Assembly: GCA_018645475.1 (NCBI GenBank)
Contig: JABGWU010000037.1
Location: forward strand, 1 to 32,545
Origin: Opitutia bacterium
GTDB taxonomy: Bacteria > Verrucomicrobiota > Verrucomicrobiia > Opitutales > Seribacteraceae
Reading direction: 5' to 3'
DNA: 32,545 nt
The first letter of the stretch is position 1. Every line of letters starts with the position of its first letter. A program made the position numbers and the translations under genes. A model generated the notes under the pieces. The model had not been told where the DNA came from. It worked only from the letters and a program-made list of their open reading frames with translations, and made no database searches. Below, in pieces: positions 3,079-31,524 of this stretch.

Positions 3079-3837
3079 TTGTACTTAAGATTTTATTTAC
3101 TAAGTGCTCCCCTGCTTTGCATGGGAGCACTTTTGTTTTCCGAAAGTAACAAGGACAACAATAGTAGTCTATTTTGTTCCTATTCATTTGGTAATTCATG
3201 GATTATTGAAAAAACAAAAGAAGGCAAGAGTGTACCATTACAACTGGAAGAAAACTCAACCCTTAATCCAAATACTGCAATCCACAGCAAGGAAGGTGCT
3301 TTATGTCAGTTTGAAAAAACAGGACAAATCATTCGCTTAGGGGCAAAATCAATTTTTGAATATAATAATACGGAAAAGATATTAACCTTATCCCGTGGTA
3401 GCATGCTTATTTACCAAAAGGAAATAAGTGACATTACGATTAGATCTGATTTTTCAACATTACGAATAATGGGAAGGTTTACCGCTATTGTAGATTGTAC
3501 CAGTAACGGTGGATTCAAATTCATTCCGCTCGAAGGGAAGGGGCAAATTATTCCAGAAAGAGGAGATTCTAAGGATATTTATCGAGGTAGACTAACCATG
3601 GTGTTAGGTTCTCCCTCCAAATTAGGTAATGCATATGACATCGATCTTTTGCTTTTATTAAAGTCTAGTCGTTTAATAAATTCTTTTCCCACTCCCCTAC
3701 CCTCAATGAAAAGAATTTCTCTTTCCATTTATGCCCAGCAACTCAGATTGAAAGGAAAATTCAATGCACTCATTGGAGATGCACCCACCGATGATAATCT
3801 TCAAATGTGGGCATTCGGAGAAGAAGAATCAAAATAA
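3079..3837 (+). CDS. Secreted FecR-domain protein
   Basis: A 252-residue protein. The TTG at 3079 is chosen because it gives a complete signal peptide (YLRFYLLSAPLLCMGALLFSES); the next ATG (3121) would destroy it. Residues ~60-160 match the FecR fold pattern: an N-terminal strand set with NPNTAIHSKEGALCQFEKTG, then IIRLGAKSIFEYN, then LTLSRGSMLIYQ, and a final RIMGRFTAIVD strand where most FecR proteins have VrGTeF. The C-terminal ~90 residues are unassigned. FecR domains were first described in anti-sigma regulators. In Verrucomicrobiota and Planctomycetota many are exported, stand-alone and next to large surface proteins, which fits here. There is no transmembrane anti-sigma helix and no adjacent sigma factor. 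It starts immediately after the second stop of the barrel gene, so it is presumably translated from the same transcript. A role on the surface or in the periplasm with its neighbours is inference. Confidence 0.7.
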   Translation: MYLRFYLLSAPLLCMGALLFSESNKDNNSSLFCSYSFGNSWIIEKTKEGKSVPLQLEENSTLNPNTAIHSKEGALCQFEKTGQIIRLGAKSIFEYNNTEKILTLSRGSMLIYQKEISDITIRSDFSTLRIMGRFTAIVDCTSNGGFKFIPLEGKGQIIPERGDSKDIYRGRLTMVLGSPSKLGNAYDIDLLLLLKSSRLINSFPTPLPSMKRISLSIYAQQLRLKGKFNALIGDAPTDDNLQMWAFGEEESK

Positions 3838-3862
3838 AAATTCCCAAGAGCTTATTTCTATA

Positions 3863-4699
3863 ATGTTTATGAATTTTCGAAAACAAATCATTCAGACATT
3901 GTTATTATCATTACTTGTATCGATATTTGTTCCTCAAACTTTCTCATTTACTTTATCTGATCAAAAAATATTGGCTTTAAAAGGAGATCGTAATACCCAA
4001 TTCAAACTCGGTTTATTTTATCAAAAAGGAAAAAATAAGGACCATCTAGAAGCTTACTATTGGATGAAAATGGCAGCTATACAAAATCACATAGCAGCTT
4101 GTCGATATGTTGGTCGTGCTCATCTTTATGGAAAAGGAACAAGTGTAACTATAGAATTAGCAAAGAAATGGTTCCTTACGGGTGCAAATCAAGGGGATTT
4201 TCACTCTATGTTAGACTTGGGCTATTGTTTGGAATTAGAAAGGAACTGGATTGAGTCAGCGGCGTGGTATAAAATTGCTCATCAATTTGGAAATACCAAT
4301 GCGTTAAAACGTCTAAACAATGTTTTGAAAAACATAACTAATTCTGAAAAAGATGAGATAGAATTACTGGTCACACAAATACAGACATCTATTTCTGAAG
4401 AAAAAAAAACATCGACTTCCTCAATTAAACCTGAATTACAAAATTCGATTAAACGAATTGATTTAAAAAACGGTTATACATATTGGGGACAAATAAAAAA
4501 TGGAATACCCCATGGTTATGGAAAAAAGAAATTCGAACAAGTTACTAAATACCAGGGAGAATTCGTAATGGGATTAGAACACGGATATGGAACATCCTTT
4601 GATATGAATGGTAAAATTTCGTTTCAAGGACTGTGGGAAGAAGGTAGCCCACTTTCTCCAAGTAGTAAGGCATTAGAAAAGGACTTTACGAACTACTAA
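3863..4699 (+). CDS. Exported Sel1-repeat and MORN-repeat protein
   Basis: A 278-residue protein from ATG 3863 (ATG 3869 is equally possible). The frame is open up to ATG 3764, but that start would overlap the FecR gene by 74 bases and bury the signal peptide. From 3863, a basic N-terminus and a hydrophobic core (TLLLSLLVSIFVP) form a signal peptide or anchor, residues ~1-29. Residues ~41-145 hold three Sel1-like repeats, with hallmarks GLFYQKG, EAYYWMKMAA, GRAHLYGKGT, AKKWFLTGANQG and ESAAWYKIAHQFG. A charged linker (146-200) leads to two clear MORN repeats (YWGQIKNGIPHGYG, 207-220, and YQGEFVMGLEHGYG, 230-243) and a weaker third (FQGLWEEGSP). Both repeat types are protein-interaction or scaffolding modules; a specific function cannot be read. 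It is the last gene of the surface block and converges with the CDGSH gene, overlapping it by 4 bases. Confidence 0.75.
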   Translation: MFMNFRKQIIQTLLLSLLVSIFVPQTFSFTLSDQKILALKGDRNTQFKLGLFYQKGKNKDHLEAYYWMKMAAIQNHIAACRYVGRAHLYGKGTSVTIELAKKWFLTGANQGDFHSMLDLGYCLELERNWIESAAWYKIAHQFGNTNALKRLNNVLKNITNSEKDEIELLVTQIQTSISEEKKTSTSSIKPELQNSIKRIDLKNGYTYWGQIKNGIPHGYGKKKFEQVTKYQGEFVMGLEHGYGTSFDMNGKISFQGLWEEGSPLSPSSKALEKDFTNY

Positions 4700-4938
4700 G
4701 CCAAAGAGGAGTGACTACCGTCACACATCGCCCCATTGGTGGAGTGTTTACAATTACAAAATGCTACATTTCGGCTTTCTTCGATCACCACTTTTTCAGG
4801 AGTAAATGACGAATCTTTATGAGAACCATCACAGAAGGGTTGTTCCTTAGATTTCCCGCATGAACACCACCAATATTCACCCGCTTCTAGTTTCATTACA
4901 GCGGGTGTTTTAGAAGCAACTATTGGTTTATCACTCAT
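4696..4938 (-). CDS. Double CDGSH-type iron-sulfur protein
   Basis: An 80-residue protein with two CDGSH iron-sulfur motifs: CSCGKSKEQPFCDGSH (residues 25-40) and CNCKHSTNGAMCDGSH (61-76). Each provides the three Cys and one His (C-x-C...C-D-G-S-H) that ligate a labile [2Fe-2S] cluster in mitoNEET-like proteins. A tandem arrangement in about 80 residues is the common bacterial form, which can act as a monomer. No signal peptide is visible, so it is probably cytoplasmic. Likely roles are electron or cluster transfer. It lies 15 bases downstream of a small membrane-protein gene and, beyond that, of korB, all on the same strand, so it may be co-transcribed with the 2-oxoacid:ferredoxin oxidoreductase. 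Its stop overlaps the convergent Sel1-MORN gene by 4 bases. Confidence 0.9.
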   Translation of the reverse strand: MSDKPIVASKTPAVMKLEAGEYWWCSCGKSKEQPFCDGSHKDSSFTPEKVVIEESRNVAFCNCKHSTNGAMCDGSHSSLA

Positions 4939-4953
4939 AATCGAGCCCGAATC

Positions 4954-5115
4954 TCAATGAGACTCTTCAGCGTGTGGTTGATCCAACACACTGCTAACAT
5001 AAATTTTCGAAGCAATTATTCCTAAAATAAGTGTTCCGAACATTAAAACGGGTACTAAAAGTACAGGTAATTTGAACTTACTGTGTCCAAACTTTGGGTC
5101 GTCAATGAAATCCAT
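4954..5115 (-). CDS. Small single-pass membrane protein (53 aa), uncalled ORF
   Basis: A short ATG-TGA frame on the minus strand fills the gap between korB and the CDGSH gene. The 53 residues begin MDFIDDPKFGHSKFK. A hydrophobic stretch follows at about residues 16-34 (LPVLLVPVLMFGTLILGII), then ASKIYVSSVLDQPHAEESH. Basic residues before the helix and acidic residues after it predict an N-in, C-out single-pass inner-membrane protein. The composition and the fit into the operon (69 bases after korB, 15 bases before the CDGSH gene) argue that it is real. No strong Shine-Dalgarno is visible, as for most genes here. I do not recognise the family. A membrane anchor or partner for the adjacent redox proteins is speculation. 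Confidence 0.6.
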   Translation of the reverse strand: MDFIDDPKFGHSKFKLPVLLVPVLMFGTLILGIIASKIYVSSVLDQPHAEESH

Positions 5116-5184
5116 AATGTAATTATTTTGAAAAGTTCTTGGTTAAGGTCAATAAGAAGAAGTTTTTTAAGCCATTATTTGCGA

Positions 5185-6210
5185 TCATTCAACAATCCAG
5201 GAATTTTGACCTGTTAAAAGTTCCTGTAGATTATCTGAGCCATTAGATTGGGCATGTTCGATTTGCTGTACCAATGCATCTTCATATGTCTCGCGACCAT
5301 CCAGTTGTCTTAAAATCCCAACAGGTGTGGGGAAAGTAGGATATGTCATTTGAGCAAGTATATTGGCGTAGGCCGAATTTGAATTCCTAGGTTGATGAAT
5401 TAATAGATCATCCTGTCCGATACCATCTCCTAAAGTTACGATCTCCGGATCCAATCCGTTCAGTCGAATTCCTTTATCTCGATTAGCTCCGAATATGAGG
5501 GGTTTGCCCTCTTCTAACGACAATACTTGATCTTGTTTCACATCCCTGGATGTAACCGTATCAAAGGTTTTATTGTTAAAAATTACGCAATTTTGAAAAA
5601 CTTCTACAAAGGAAGTGCCTTTGTGGGCTTGTGCTGCCTTAAAAGTCTCAACCATATGTTTCATATCTGTATCGGTAGTACGGGCAACAAATGTGGCTTC
5701 ACTTCCTAAAGCAAACAATAAAGGATTGATTGGATGATCCACTGAACCAACAGGTGTACTCTTGGTCTTTTTACCGACCTCCGAGGTTGGACTGTACTGC
5801 CCTTTGGTTAAGCCATAAATTCTATTGTTAAACAGTAAAACATTGATGTCTAAATTTCTACGGAGTAAATGAAGGAGATGGTTTGCTCCAATAGAAAGTC
5901 CGTCACCATCACCAGTTATCATCCAGACAGATAAATCTGGATTAGCCACCTTCACTCCAGTTGCTACAGTAGGTGCTCGTCCATGTATCGTATGAAACCC
6001 GTAGGTATTCATATAGTATGGAAATCGGCTACTACATCCAATTCCGCTCACAACCACGAATTTTTCACGGGGTATGTCTAATTCAGGTAAAGTTCGTTGA
6101 ACCGCATTAAGGATTGCGTAATCACCGCAACCGGGACACCAACGGACATCGTTGGGGGTTACAAAATCTTTTTTGGTTAAACTACTCTCGTCAGTTGTTG
6201 TTATACTCAT
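5185..6210 (-). CDS. korB: 2-oxoacid:ferredoxin oxidoreductase, beta subunit (KorB-like)
   Basis: A 341-residue TPP-binding subunit of a 2-oxoacid:ferredoxin oxidoreductase, most like the 2-oxoglutarate (Kor) type, which converts 2-oxoglutarate and CoA to succinyl-CoA, CO2 and reduced ferredoxin. Visible motifs are WCPGCGD (24-30) and SGIGCSSR (55-62), which carry Cys ligands for the iron-sulfur cluster. The TPP/Mg motif GDGDGLSIGANH is at 100-111, followed by NNRIYGLTKGQYSPTS. The ~140 C-terminal residues correspond to the longer C-terminal region seen in this subfamily. The gene starts 21 bases after korA and the two form the whole enzyme. No separate ferredoxin-like delta subunit is encoded next to them. 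In an aerobe such an enzyme can replace the 2-oxoglutarate dehydrogenase complex. Substrate specificity cannot be proven from motifs alone. Confidence 0.9.
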   Translation of the reverse strand: MSITTTDESSLTKKDFVTPNDVRWCPGCGDYAILNAVQRTLPELDIPREKFVVVSGIGCSSRFPYYMNTYGFHTIHGRAPTVATGVKVANPDLSVWMITGDGDGLSIGANHLLHLLRRNLDINVLLFNNRIYGLTKGQYSPTSEVGKKTKSTPVGSVDHPINPLLFALGSEATFVARTTDTDMKHMVETFKAAQAHKGTSFVEVFQNCVIFNNKTFDTVTSRDVKQDQVLSLEEGKPLIFGANRDKGIRLNGLDPEIVTLGDGIGQDDLLIHQPRNSNSAYANILAQMTYPTFPTPVGILRQLDGRETYEDALVQQIEHAQSNGSDNLQELLTGQNSWIVE

Positions 6211-6231
6211 TTGAACAATTAAGGTTTTTGC

Positions 6232-8073
6232 TTATCGAAGGTATTCAAGAAACTTTTTATGTAATTCTGCAACTTTGAACGGTTTACCCTGAAGTTTTCC
6301 GTATGAAATTACATCTACTAAATATTTAGCACGAAGTATAACATTTAATTGCCCAAGGTTAAGCTCAGGAACAATAACTTTTTTAAACCGACTCATAATT
6401 TCTCCCAGATCATCTGGAAGTGGATTAAGATGTCGAAGGTGAATATTACTTATGGAAAATCCTTCATCTCTTAAATTTCTTGATGCAGATGAAATAGCTC
6501 CGTAGGTCCCACCCCATCCAATCACTAATAAATCTCCTTCCGATTCACCCTGAATATGAATGGGATCAAGTGTCTTAGAAATTCTAGCAACTTTCTGGGC
6601 TCTTACTAAACTCATTTCCTCGTGATTATCGGGATCGTAACTTACACCACCGTCTTCCCCTTTTTCCAATCCGCCAATTCGGTGTTCAAGTCCGACCTGA
6701 CCAGGAATGGCTTGTGAACGAGCTAAAGTCTCTTTATTTCGTCTGTAAATAACATACTCCTCTTCTGTGCTTGCGAAAGAATTTTCAATAACAGGTAAAT
6801 CTGATACATTTGGTACACGCCATGGTTCTGAACCATTCGCAACATATAGATCACTTAGAAGAATAACTGGTGTCATGTAAGTTAAAGCGATTCGAGCAGC
6901 TTCAATGGCACAATCAAAACAATCAGAAGGTGAATGAGCGGCAATAACAGGAAGTGGGCAATCACCATGCCTTGAAAAAAGAGCCTGCAATAGATCGCTT
7001 TGTTCAGTCTTGGTTGGCAAGCCAGTACTTGGCCCACCTCGTTGAACATTACATATAATCAGTGGCAATTCGGTAATGGATGCTAATCCAATAAACTCAC
7101 TCTTTAAACACATACCCGGACCACTCGTTGCACAAACGGTCAAGTCACCAGCAAAACTGGCACCAAGTGCAACGCCCATTGCCGCGATTTCATCTTCCGC
7201 TTGGACACATTTAATTCCAAATTTCTTAAGGTGTGAAAGTCCTTCTAGAACTGGCGATGCAGGCGTAATAGGATAACCTGAATACAAAAGTTCTCGATTG
7301 GACTGCTTGGCTGCAGCAACTAATCCATAAACCAATGCCTCATTTCCCGAAATTTTACGATAAACCCCAGCTTCAACGGGTGCCTTAGAAACCTGATATC
7401 GATTTCGGGCGGTCTCCATGGTATCACCTAAATTATGACCCGCTTTTAAAACTTGTGAATTAGCTTGGGCTAAATCTGGTAATCGTTTCCCCCACTTATC
7501 TTCAAAAAATTTCAAGGTAGGTTCCAAGGGTCGCCCGTAGACATAATACATAAAACCCAAAGCGAAAAAATTCTTACATCTTACCTTATCGGAAGGTTTA
7601 AGAGGACTATCTTTAAGAGCTTCCTTCGTTAACCCTGTTAAATCTAATTCAATAAGATGATATTTTTTTCGAAAATCCTCATCATCCAGTGGGCTACTTT
7701 CATAACCAGCCTTCTTCAAATTCATTGATTTAAAGGAATCTATGTTTACCACTAACATTCCACCTTCGGGAAGATCGCTAATATTAGCCCTTAATGCAGC
7801 TGGATTCATCGCTACGAGAGCGTCAGGTGCATCACCGGGAGTTAGTATTTTACTATTTCCAAATTGGAGCTGAAACCCAGACACCCCCGCAAGTGTACCT
7901 GCAGGTGCTCGAATCTCAGCAGGAAAATCAGGAAGGGTGGCAATATCATTACCAGCGAACGCACTACTGTCCGTAAAGCGTTCTCCAACGGTTTGCATAC
8001 CATCACCGGAATCTCCTGCAAAACGAACAACGGCGGAATCAATTTCTTCAAAAGAATCAGTGGACTGAGTCAT
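6232..8073 (-). CDS. korA: 2-oxoacid:ferredoxin oxidoreductase, fused gamma-alpha subunit (KorA-like)
   Basis: A 613-residue fused subunit. Residues ~12-205 are the gamma (POR/KOR CoA-binding) domain, beginning VVRFAGDSGDGMQTVGERF. Residues ~240-613 are the alpha (pyrimidine-binding) domain, with YSGYPITPASPVLEGL (264-279), AEDEIAAMGVALGASFAG, the CATSGPGMCLKSE loop, and QRGGPSTGLPTKTEQSDL, all typical of 2-oxoglutarate-type enzymes. Together with KorB it forms the (gamma-alpha)-beta oxidoreductase that reduces ferredoxin. The start at 8073 places the gamma domain at the usual distance. Upstream (8074-8211) is an AT-rich spacer with a hairpin, which separates it from the dioxygenase and cupin genes on the same strand. 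Confidence 0.9.
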   Translation of the reverse strand: MTQSTDSFEEIDSAVVRFAGDSGDGMQTVGERFTDSSAFAGNDIATLPDFPAEIRAPAGTLAGVSGFQLQFGNSKILTPGDAPDALVAMNPAALRANISDLPEGGMLVVNIDSFKSMNLKKAGYESSPLDDEDFRKKYHLIELDLTGLTKEALKDSPLKPSDKVRCKNFFALGFMYYVYGRPLEPTLKFFEDKWGKRLPDLAQANSQVLKAGHNLGDTMETARNRYQVSKAPVEAGVYRKISGNEALVYGLVAAAKQSNRELLYSGYPITPASPVLEGLSHLKKFGIKCVQAEDEIAAMGVALGASFAGDLTVCATSGPGMCLKSEFIGLASITELPLIICNVQRGGPSTGLPTKTEQSDLLQALFSRHGDCPLPVIAAHSPSDCFDCAIEAARIALTYMTPVILLSDLYVANGSEPWRVPNVSDLPVIENSFASTEEEYVIYRRNKETLARSQAIPGQVGLEHRIGGLEKGEDGGVSYDPDNHEEMSLVRAQKVARISKTLDPIHIQGESEGDLLVIGWGGTYGAISSASRNLRDEGFSISNIHLRHLNPLPDDLGEIMSRFKKVIVPELNLGQLNVILRAKYLVDVISYGKLQGKPFKVAELHKKFLEYLR

Positions 8074-29499: not shown

Positions 29500-31524
29500 A
29501 TGGCGTCCTCCTACTGCGCCTCGCGTTTTCATTCAATCCGCAGAACATCCCGGGTTGTTTCCATTGGAAGGGTACCAACAGGTGGAACTCATCCAGTCCG
29601 GGTTCAATCGATGACGACAACCGATACCATGGATATCGAAGCAACCGTTCGTCAAACCATCGAACTCGCGGAAGCCGGTTGCGAAATTGTACGTATCACT
29701 GCACCCAATGTACGGGCAGCCAAGGCTCTTGCAGAAATTACCAACCAAGTACGCTCCGCAAAAATCGAAGTTCCCCTAGTCGCTGATATCCACTTCCTTC
29801 CTCAAGCAGCAATGGAAGCGGTCAACCATGTCGAGAAAGTTCGGGTTAATCCAGGAAACTATGCTGACCGGAAAAAATTTCAGGTTCGAGAATACAGCGA
29901 TTCCCAATACGAAGAAGAACTTGAAAGGTTACATGAATCATTCTCTCCGTTGGTTCTTCGCTGCAAAGAACTTGGTCGTTCCATGCGAATTGGTACTAAC
30001 CATGGCTCATTATCAGACCGGGTGATGAATCGGTTTGGCGACTCTCCCCGAGGTATGGCTGAATCTGCTCTTGAATTCATTCGTATCGCACGCTCTCACA
30101 ATTTTCATGAACTCGTACTTTCTATGAAAGCAAGCAACCCGAAGGTTATGATCGAAGCGTACAGGTTGGTGGTGGCTCTTATGAACGAAGAAGAAATGGA
30201 CTACCCTCTTCATTTAGGAGTAACCGAAGCAGGAGATGGCGAAGATGCTCGCATTAAAAGTGCGATAGGCATTGGTTCTCTCCTATTAGACGGTCTCGGT
30301 GACACCATTCGTGTATCACTAACCGAAGATCCTGTTGCCGAAATTCCCGTTGCCCAAGATCTCGCTCACCGAGCTGAGTATTGGTGGGGATTCAAACAAG
30401 AAATTTCTACCGATCCGATGGAAGAAATTGACCCATTTTCCTTCCAACGCAGGGAATGTTCAGAGATTTCTCTCTCGGCATCGGGCCCAAGTATTGGAGA
30501 AAAACACCCACCTGCTGTCATCGCTCACAGCTGTCATACACTATCTAAATCAGCAGAAATCATTAAGGAATTAGCCCAAACCCAAGTCCGAACAAAAGAC
30601 GCTCCAATTGAAGGACTGGTTATTCCCTTAAAAGATTCCTCGGAACTGACTCACTTGGCCTTGCTTCGATCATCCTTACTTGGCGCAGTACCCTGCTTAA
30701 TCATTGACGATCAACGCGATGAATCTGCAGACGATTCCATTCCACCCCACCGACCAAACCTCGTACCTCTTCTTTGGCATTCTCAACAGGCTACATCGAA
30801 CGGAGCAAGCCTTGCACGATTCCTTACTCTTTGCGATGAAGCAGGGCACCAAGCCATCCTCTCAATTGACCCCACAGGATCGAATGAAGAAATATCAACT
30901 ATTCTGGCAAATGCGTCCTCTAAGTTAATCGTAACCCTTGATTCTCAAAACTACGATAATATCGTCTCTGGATACCGAGCACTTGTAGTTTATATTGCTC
31001 ATCTTGGTTTATTGTCTCCGATTTGGATTAGGAACGAAGAGAATTCTCGACTGTACCCTAAGGATAATCTTTTTTCCGGTCGACTGCTCGATGCATCCGT
31101 TCTATCAGGTTCGCTTCTATGCGATGGGATTGGCGACATTATATCCGTTGAACATACCGGCTCACTCGATCGTAACCGCGGACTCGCCTATAACCTTTTA
31201 CAAGGTGCTAGGTCACGTATTTCTAAAACCGAATTTGTCGCTTGCCCTAGTTGTGGACGAACACTGTTCGACCTTCAAAGCACAACTCAACGAGTCAAAC
31301 AAGCAACTGGTCATTTAAAAGGAGTTACCATTGCGGTCATGGGGTGCATTGTGAATGGCCCTGGAGAAATGGCCGATGCAGACTTTGGATATGTCGGCTC
31401 AGGACCAGGCAAAATTGATCTTTATGTAGGAAAAAATCGTGTAAAATCCTCCATCCCTGAAAACGACGCGGTTGACCAACTCGTTCAACTCATTCAAGAA
31501 GAAAACAAATGGATCGCTCCCTAA
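29500..31524 (+). CDS. ispG: 4-hydroxy-3-methylbut-2-enyl diphosphate synthase, large two-module form
   Basis: A 674-residue IspG (GcpE) converting MEcPP to HMBPP with a [4Fe-4S] cluster. The N-terminal TIM barrel begins at VPTGGTHPVRVQSMTTTDTMD and includes PLVADIHFLPQAAMEAV, KVRVNPGNY and IGTNHGSLSDR. The C-terminal iron-sulfur domain has CPSCGRTLFDL (C582, C585) and GCIVNGPGEMADADFGYVG (C616, E623). Between them lies an extra domain of roughly 250 residues (~330-575), absent from the E. coli type (~370 residues) but known from plants, Chlamydiae, Bacteroidota and Verrucomicrobiota. AAGGAG at 29482-29487 lies 12 bases from ATG 29500 and 3 from TTG 29491. ATG is chosen, TTG cannot be excluded. 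Confidence 0.95.
   Translation: MASSYCASRFHSIRRTSRVVSIGRVPTGGTHPVRVQSMTTTDTMDIEATVRQTIELAEAGCEIVRITAPNVRAAKALAEITNQVRSAKIEVPLVADIHFLPQAAMEAVNHVEKVRVNPGNYADRKKFQVREYSDSQYEEELERLHESFSPLVLRCKELGRSMRIGTNHGSLSDRVMNRFGDSPRGMAESALEFIRIARSHNFHELVLSMKASNPKVMIEAYRLVVALMNEEEMDYPLHLGVTEAGDGEDARIKSAIGIGSLLLDGLGDTIRVSLTEDPVAEIPVAQDLAHRAEYWWGFKQEISTDPMEEIDPFSFQRRECSEISLSASGPSIGEKHPPAVIAHSCHTLSKSAEIIKELAQTQVRTKDAPIEGLVIPLKDSSELTHLALLRSSLLGAVPCLIIDDQRDESADDSIPPHRPNLVPLLWHSQQATSNGASLARFLTLCDEAGHQAILSIDPTGSNEEISTILANASSKLIVTLDSQNYDNIVSGYRALVVYIAHLGLLSPIWIRNEENSRLYPKDNLFSGRLLDASVLSGSLLCDGIGDIISVEHTGSLDRNRGLAYNLLQGARSRISKTEFVACPSCGRTLFDLQSTTQRVKQATGHLKGVTIAVMGCIVNGPGEMADADFGYVGSGPGKIDLYVGKNRVKSSIPENDAVDQLVQLIQEENKWIAP

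Follow-up and report, generated by a model that had tools for sequence, protein, structure and literature searches.

The question raised by this locus is whether two small genes that follow the genes for a 2-oxoacid:ferredoxin oxidoreductase (KOR) belong to that enzyme. In the window, the whole stretch of 32,545 nucleotides that was analyzed, korA (6232–8073), korB (5185–6210), a gene for a 53-aa protein referred to here as TM53 (4954–5115), and a gene for an 80-aa double-CDGSH protein (4696–4938) are all encoded on the minus strand, separated by 21, 69, and 15 bp. An ORF check thus bore out the order, strand, and coordinates given in an earlier note on this DNA, which had proposed that the two small genes form an accessory set for the enzyme. 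KorA (613 aa) is a fusion of the gamma and alpha subunits (PF01558 and PF01855), and KorB (341 aa, PF02775) is the TPP-binding beta subunit, for which phmmer gave the beta subunit of 6n2n/6n2o as the nearest solved relative (by E-value). KorAB is of the two-subunit type, both subunits scoring over the curated NCBIfam subfamily cut-offs (611.9 against 482.75 bits for KorA with TIGR03710, and 277.4 against 261.9 bits for KorB with TIGR02177). No ferredoxin or delta-subunit gene adjoins the KOR genes in the window, as the earlier note had observed; since the two-subunit type has, to our knowledge, no delta subunit, this absence is not unusual in itself. At the other end of the cluster, the CDGSH gene shares 4 bp (4696–4699) with the end of a convergent Sel1/MORN-repeat gene (3764–4699, plus strand).

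OGDH E1 (TIGR00239) was found over the cut-off in the genome of the window itself (G000:C269) alongside KOR, and thus the KOR substrate could be a 2-oxoacid other than 2-oxoglutarate. The same combination was observed in most g1 and several g4 genomes, and no g2 or g3 genome contained OGDH E1 over the cut-off; from this distribution, KOR may have different roles in different genera.

TM53 is a real gene, strongly conserved and under purifying selection. It was located downstream of korB in all 28 genomes of this Opitutales family (Verrucomicrobiota) where both were read, which represent three genera (g1, g2, and g4), and was never seen apart from korB (the copy in G020 lies at a contig edge). 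Its length was kept at 52–57 aa except for one frame-shifted copy (G016), and the mean pN/pS over 351 pairs was 0.33, with values of 0.24 for the CDGSH gene and 0.15 for korB. A chance ORF was ruled out by this ratio and the synteny; the unannotated small membrane ORF of the earlier note is therefore a gene, and it is conserved well outside the genome in which it was noticed. No significant match was retrieved for TM53 from Pfam, NCBIfam, or the PDB chains, and the candidate relationships to PsbW (E 0.85), DUF1218, and the LapA domain were not significant. In 273 genomes from the order and 388 from the phylum, nothing outside the family matched TM53 significantly over its full length; the few weak matches were partial, and most of them were inside much longer open frames. 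Four genomes that gave no match for KOR (G002, G005, G011, and G033), most of which are incomplete assemblies, also gave none for TM53. In one genome (G029, L145), approximately 1 kb containing decayed reading-frame fragments on the opposite strand separates korB from TM53, and TM53 and the CDGSH gene are intact and 13 bp apart.

TM53 is predicted to be a single-pass membrane protein with one helix at residues 15–43 (AlphaFold2, 25 sequences, mean pLDDT 77). Conservation is highest in the N-terminal segment and the helix, and the acidic/His-rich C-terminal tail is variable. The N-terminal segment has the form F-I-D-x-P-x-x-G-H-x-K/R-x-K/R-L-P, in which the motif F-I-D-x-P-x-x-G-H is invariant, and near-invariant positions of the protein include F3, I4, D5, P7, G10, H11, P17, P22, M25, G32, K37, and V43. 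As it has no Cys and one invariant His only, TM53 is unlikely to carry electrons by itself.

The CDGSH protein aligned almost end to end with 3tbn and 6avj (phmmer) and carries the CxC...CDGSH ligand pattern in both halves; two zf-CDGSH stretches were recognized in it. With tandem CDGSH motifs approximately 20 residues apart in one short chain, it belongs to the type 6 CISD proteins as defined previously (PMC3174974). The korB–TM53 pair is accompanied by a linked CDGSH gene in 14 of the 28 genomes, four have a CDGSH gene elsewhere, and the remaining 10 have no CDGSH match, absence being called at PF09360 E 0.01 in assemblies of varying completeness (G015, G016, and G026 are 92–96% complete). 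Where both genes are present, they are usually 4–15 bp apart. The separation also occurs in the other direction, as two g3 genomes have korAB followed by CDGSH without TM53. KOR orthologs read from the Opitutales families f2, f7, f18, f21, and f24 have neither gene after korB, and no korA or korB match was found at any non-Opitutales CDGSH locus fetched, so a KOR–CDGSH linkage as a general rule was rejected. The kor–CDGSH linkage described in the earlier note is therefore present in 14 TM53 genomes and the two g3 genomes, and it is absent from the other Opitutales families read. On the KorB tree, CDGSH-linked and unlinked states are intermixed within genus g1, and this mixing is consistent with repeated loss of the linked gene. 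The best reading of these sequence comparisons is that CDGSH is an optional, dispensable neighbor of korAB–TM53. Two linked copies contain an in-frame stop (G031 of g3, L020; G035 of g2, L022) and are possibly decaying. The unlinked CDGSH genes at four loci (L008, L012, L013, and L014) adjoin a conserved membrane-protein ORF of approximately 91–116 aa with the motif GMPELGTQTQ.

The gap between korB and TM53 (5116–5184, minus strand) was inspected for a terminator-like site, a check suggested in the earlier note, and none was found. It contains a TTGACC box (5147–5152, minus strand) approximately 31 nt before the TM53 ATG. Of 27 korB–TM53 gaps, 26 contained TTGAC at a distance of 37–53 nt upstream of the FID codon, compared with a mean of 1.4 and a maximum of 6 under a first-order Markov null, and the following base was C in 21 of the 26. 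Between more distant genomes, the gaps are otherwise dissimilar. The hexamer 17 bp further on is weak, A-rich, and −10-like, with A at position 2 in 81%, the highest among the spacings tested. TTGAC as a general start-site feature was rejected, since no distinct peak around −40 emerged ahead of the ORF starts across 400 kb of a genome from the same genus. Of the genes in the window that were checked, just two carry it within 70 nt upstream: TM53 and an inositol-phosphatase-like gene at 31509. The CDGSH gene in the window has no TTGAC box of its own, and the box is missing from the unlinked CDGSH genes and the g3 korB–CDGSH junctions read. Given its conservation, TTGAC(C) probably serves as the −35 element of a promoter that drives TM53 and any linked CDGSH gene, which would at least partly be a transcription unit of their own; a repressor or activator site is possible instead. 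A separate promoter weakens the case for co-regulation with korAB.

A ferredoxin able to serve KOR has a potential far below that of CISD3. The potential of the human two-cluster CISD3 is about −31 mV (PMC10937110). By analogy with this value, the CDGSH protein is unlikely to be the direct electron acceptor of KOR, which upholds a doubt that the earlier note had itself expressed. Fe-S or redox sensing, or repair, is a more likely role for it than that of primary acceptor. The authors of the study on the M. tuberculosis KOR found no physiological acceptor and suggested a membrane association (PMC2773412). In the present family, Fer4-type proteins are encoded elsewhere in the genomes, and none of the 42 family genomes contained rnfC over the curated cut-off. 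Rnf was therefore set aside as the ferredoxin sink of the family; the weak matches probably represent NuoF/NuoI of complex I, judging from their size and position. At eight loci (L043, L050, L053, L055, L058, L059, L061, and L062), a homologous double-CDGSH gene was observed that directly precedes rnfA-rnfB-rnfC in the same orientation. These loci are proteobacterial-type and include Thiobacillus, Parasulfuritortus, and Tepidiphilus; because most come from related bacteria, the eight may represent about one evolutionary event. Among the papers searched, none joined CDGSH with 'oxoglutarate ferredoxin oxidoreductase', and the sole match for CDGSH with Rnf concerned Parkinson's disease.

We tentatively favor, as somewhat short of an even chance, the reading in which TM53 serves the two-subunit KOR of this family as a lineage-specific membrane accessory that would dock KorAB or its carrier, with CDGSH as an option. 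TM53 tracks KOR rather than CDGSH, as 14 genomes retain it with no CDGSH gene linked; its constant place after korB in 28 genomes, the lack of a significant full-length match elsewhere, the pN/pS value, the conserved N-terminus and helix, the conserved TTGAC(C), the lack of an rnfC match over the cut-off in the family, and the membrane association suggested for the M. tuberculosis KOR were also counted in favor. Against it, the same KOR occurs without TM53 in the two g3 genomes, the KOR orthologs of the other Opitutales families read lack TM53 too, and a persistent neighbor within one family can reflect shared descent. The occurrence of KOR without TM53 also suits the possible, though not probable, case that TM53 is unrelated to KOR and came to follow korB by chance in this lineage. 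It would then be a small membrane protein with a promoter of its own, for example a small subunit or stabilizer of a respiratory complex or a small protein induced by stress. The −35-like box agrees with such independence, as does G029, where a decayed remnant parts TM53 from korB and leaves TM53 and CDGSH together; this reading accounts poorly for a korB linkage that outlasted the coming and going of CDGSH in three genera and for the failure to detect TM53 in the four KOR-less genomes, mostly incomplete assemblies.

The CDGSH gene bears on the other two readings. TM53 and CDGSH could be the halves of a split, membrane-anchored NEET protein, with TM53 in the part that the N-terminal helix plays as the anchor of mitoNEET and KOR as a mere neighbor or a client for Fe-S repair. 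Their close spacing and the finding that the unlinked CDGSH genes of G001, G004, G010, and G022 adjoin another small membrane-protein ORF agree with this, but the 14 genomes with TM53 and no linked CDGSH gene, 10 of them with no CDGSH match, together with the persistence of CDGSH in g3 without TM53, make it improbable. Least probable is the relay of the earlier note, in which CDGSH and TM53 pass KOR electrons to the quinone pool. The gene order, the CDGSH relatives beside rnfABC, and the lack of Rnf over the cut-off in the family speak for such a relay; however, half of the korAB–TM53 genomes either lack CDGSH or have it elsewhere, a potential like that of CISD3 would waste most of the driving force of KOR, and a single His is the only obvious redox ligand in TM53. 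As a tight three-gene module, it was rejected because of the separation of TM53 and CDGSH in both directions; what stands of the accessory set is the small ORF tied to korAB across the family.

For TM53 as a KOR accessory, the N-terminal segment, which most likely faces the cytoplasm, would hold KorAB or an electron carrier shared with it at the inner membrane, and this contact and tethering would deliver electrons from 2-oxoacid oxidation close to the respiratory chain. TM53 and, in genomes that have it, CDGSH would probably be transcribed at least partly from the promoter in the korB–TM53 gap, and CDGSH would act as an add-on for sensing or repair. It is unlikely, but worth stating, that TM53 is the first member of a new membrane adaptor family, whose role would be to recruit a soluble 2-oxoacid oxidoreductase of the ferredoxin type to the inner membrane and so open an electron route into respiration in bacteria without Rnf. 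The question of electron delivery from the KorAB of aerobes becomes testable with a conserved gene for a membrane protein that stays with korAB in a family where Rnf did not pass the cut-off, and comparative genomics can tell a persistent small ORF apart from its CDGSH neighbor.

Compared with known systems, KorAB has the same fused gamma-alpha and beta composition as 6n2n/6n2o, Sulfolobus tokodaii StOFOR (5b46–5b48), and M. tuberculosis KorAB, likewise without a ferredoxin-like delta subunit, but differs in the small membrane-protein gene after korB; no such gene followed the orthologs that were read from other Opitutales families. The CDGSH-rnfABC cluster of Hydrogenophilales-type bacteria has the same homologous double CDGSH beside a ferredoxin-linked enzyme, whereas Rnf takes the place of KOR and no TM53 match is present. 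The CDGSH protein shares two CDGSH motifs in about 80 aa with the type 6 CISD proteins (MmCISD, 3tbn; human CISD3, 6avj); here, it sits after korAB or the membrane-protein gene and has no TM helix of its own. As in mitoNEET/CISD1, CDGSH chemistry is paired at the gene level with a membrane helix; in contrast to a mitoNEET-like anchored CISD, in which helix and CDGSH domain would always go together, they are separate genes here, with 14 genomes in which only TM53 is linked and g3 genomes in which only CDGSH is linked, and the helix gene persists without CDGSH.
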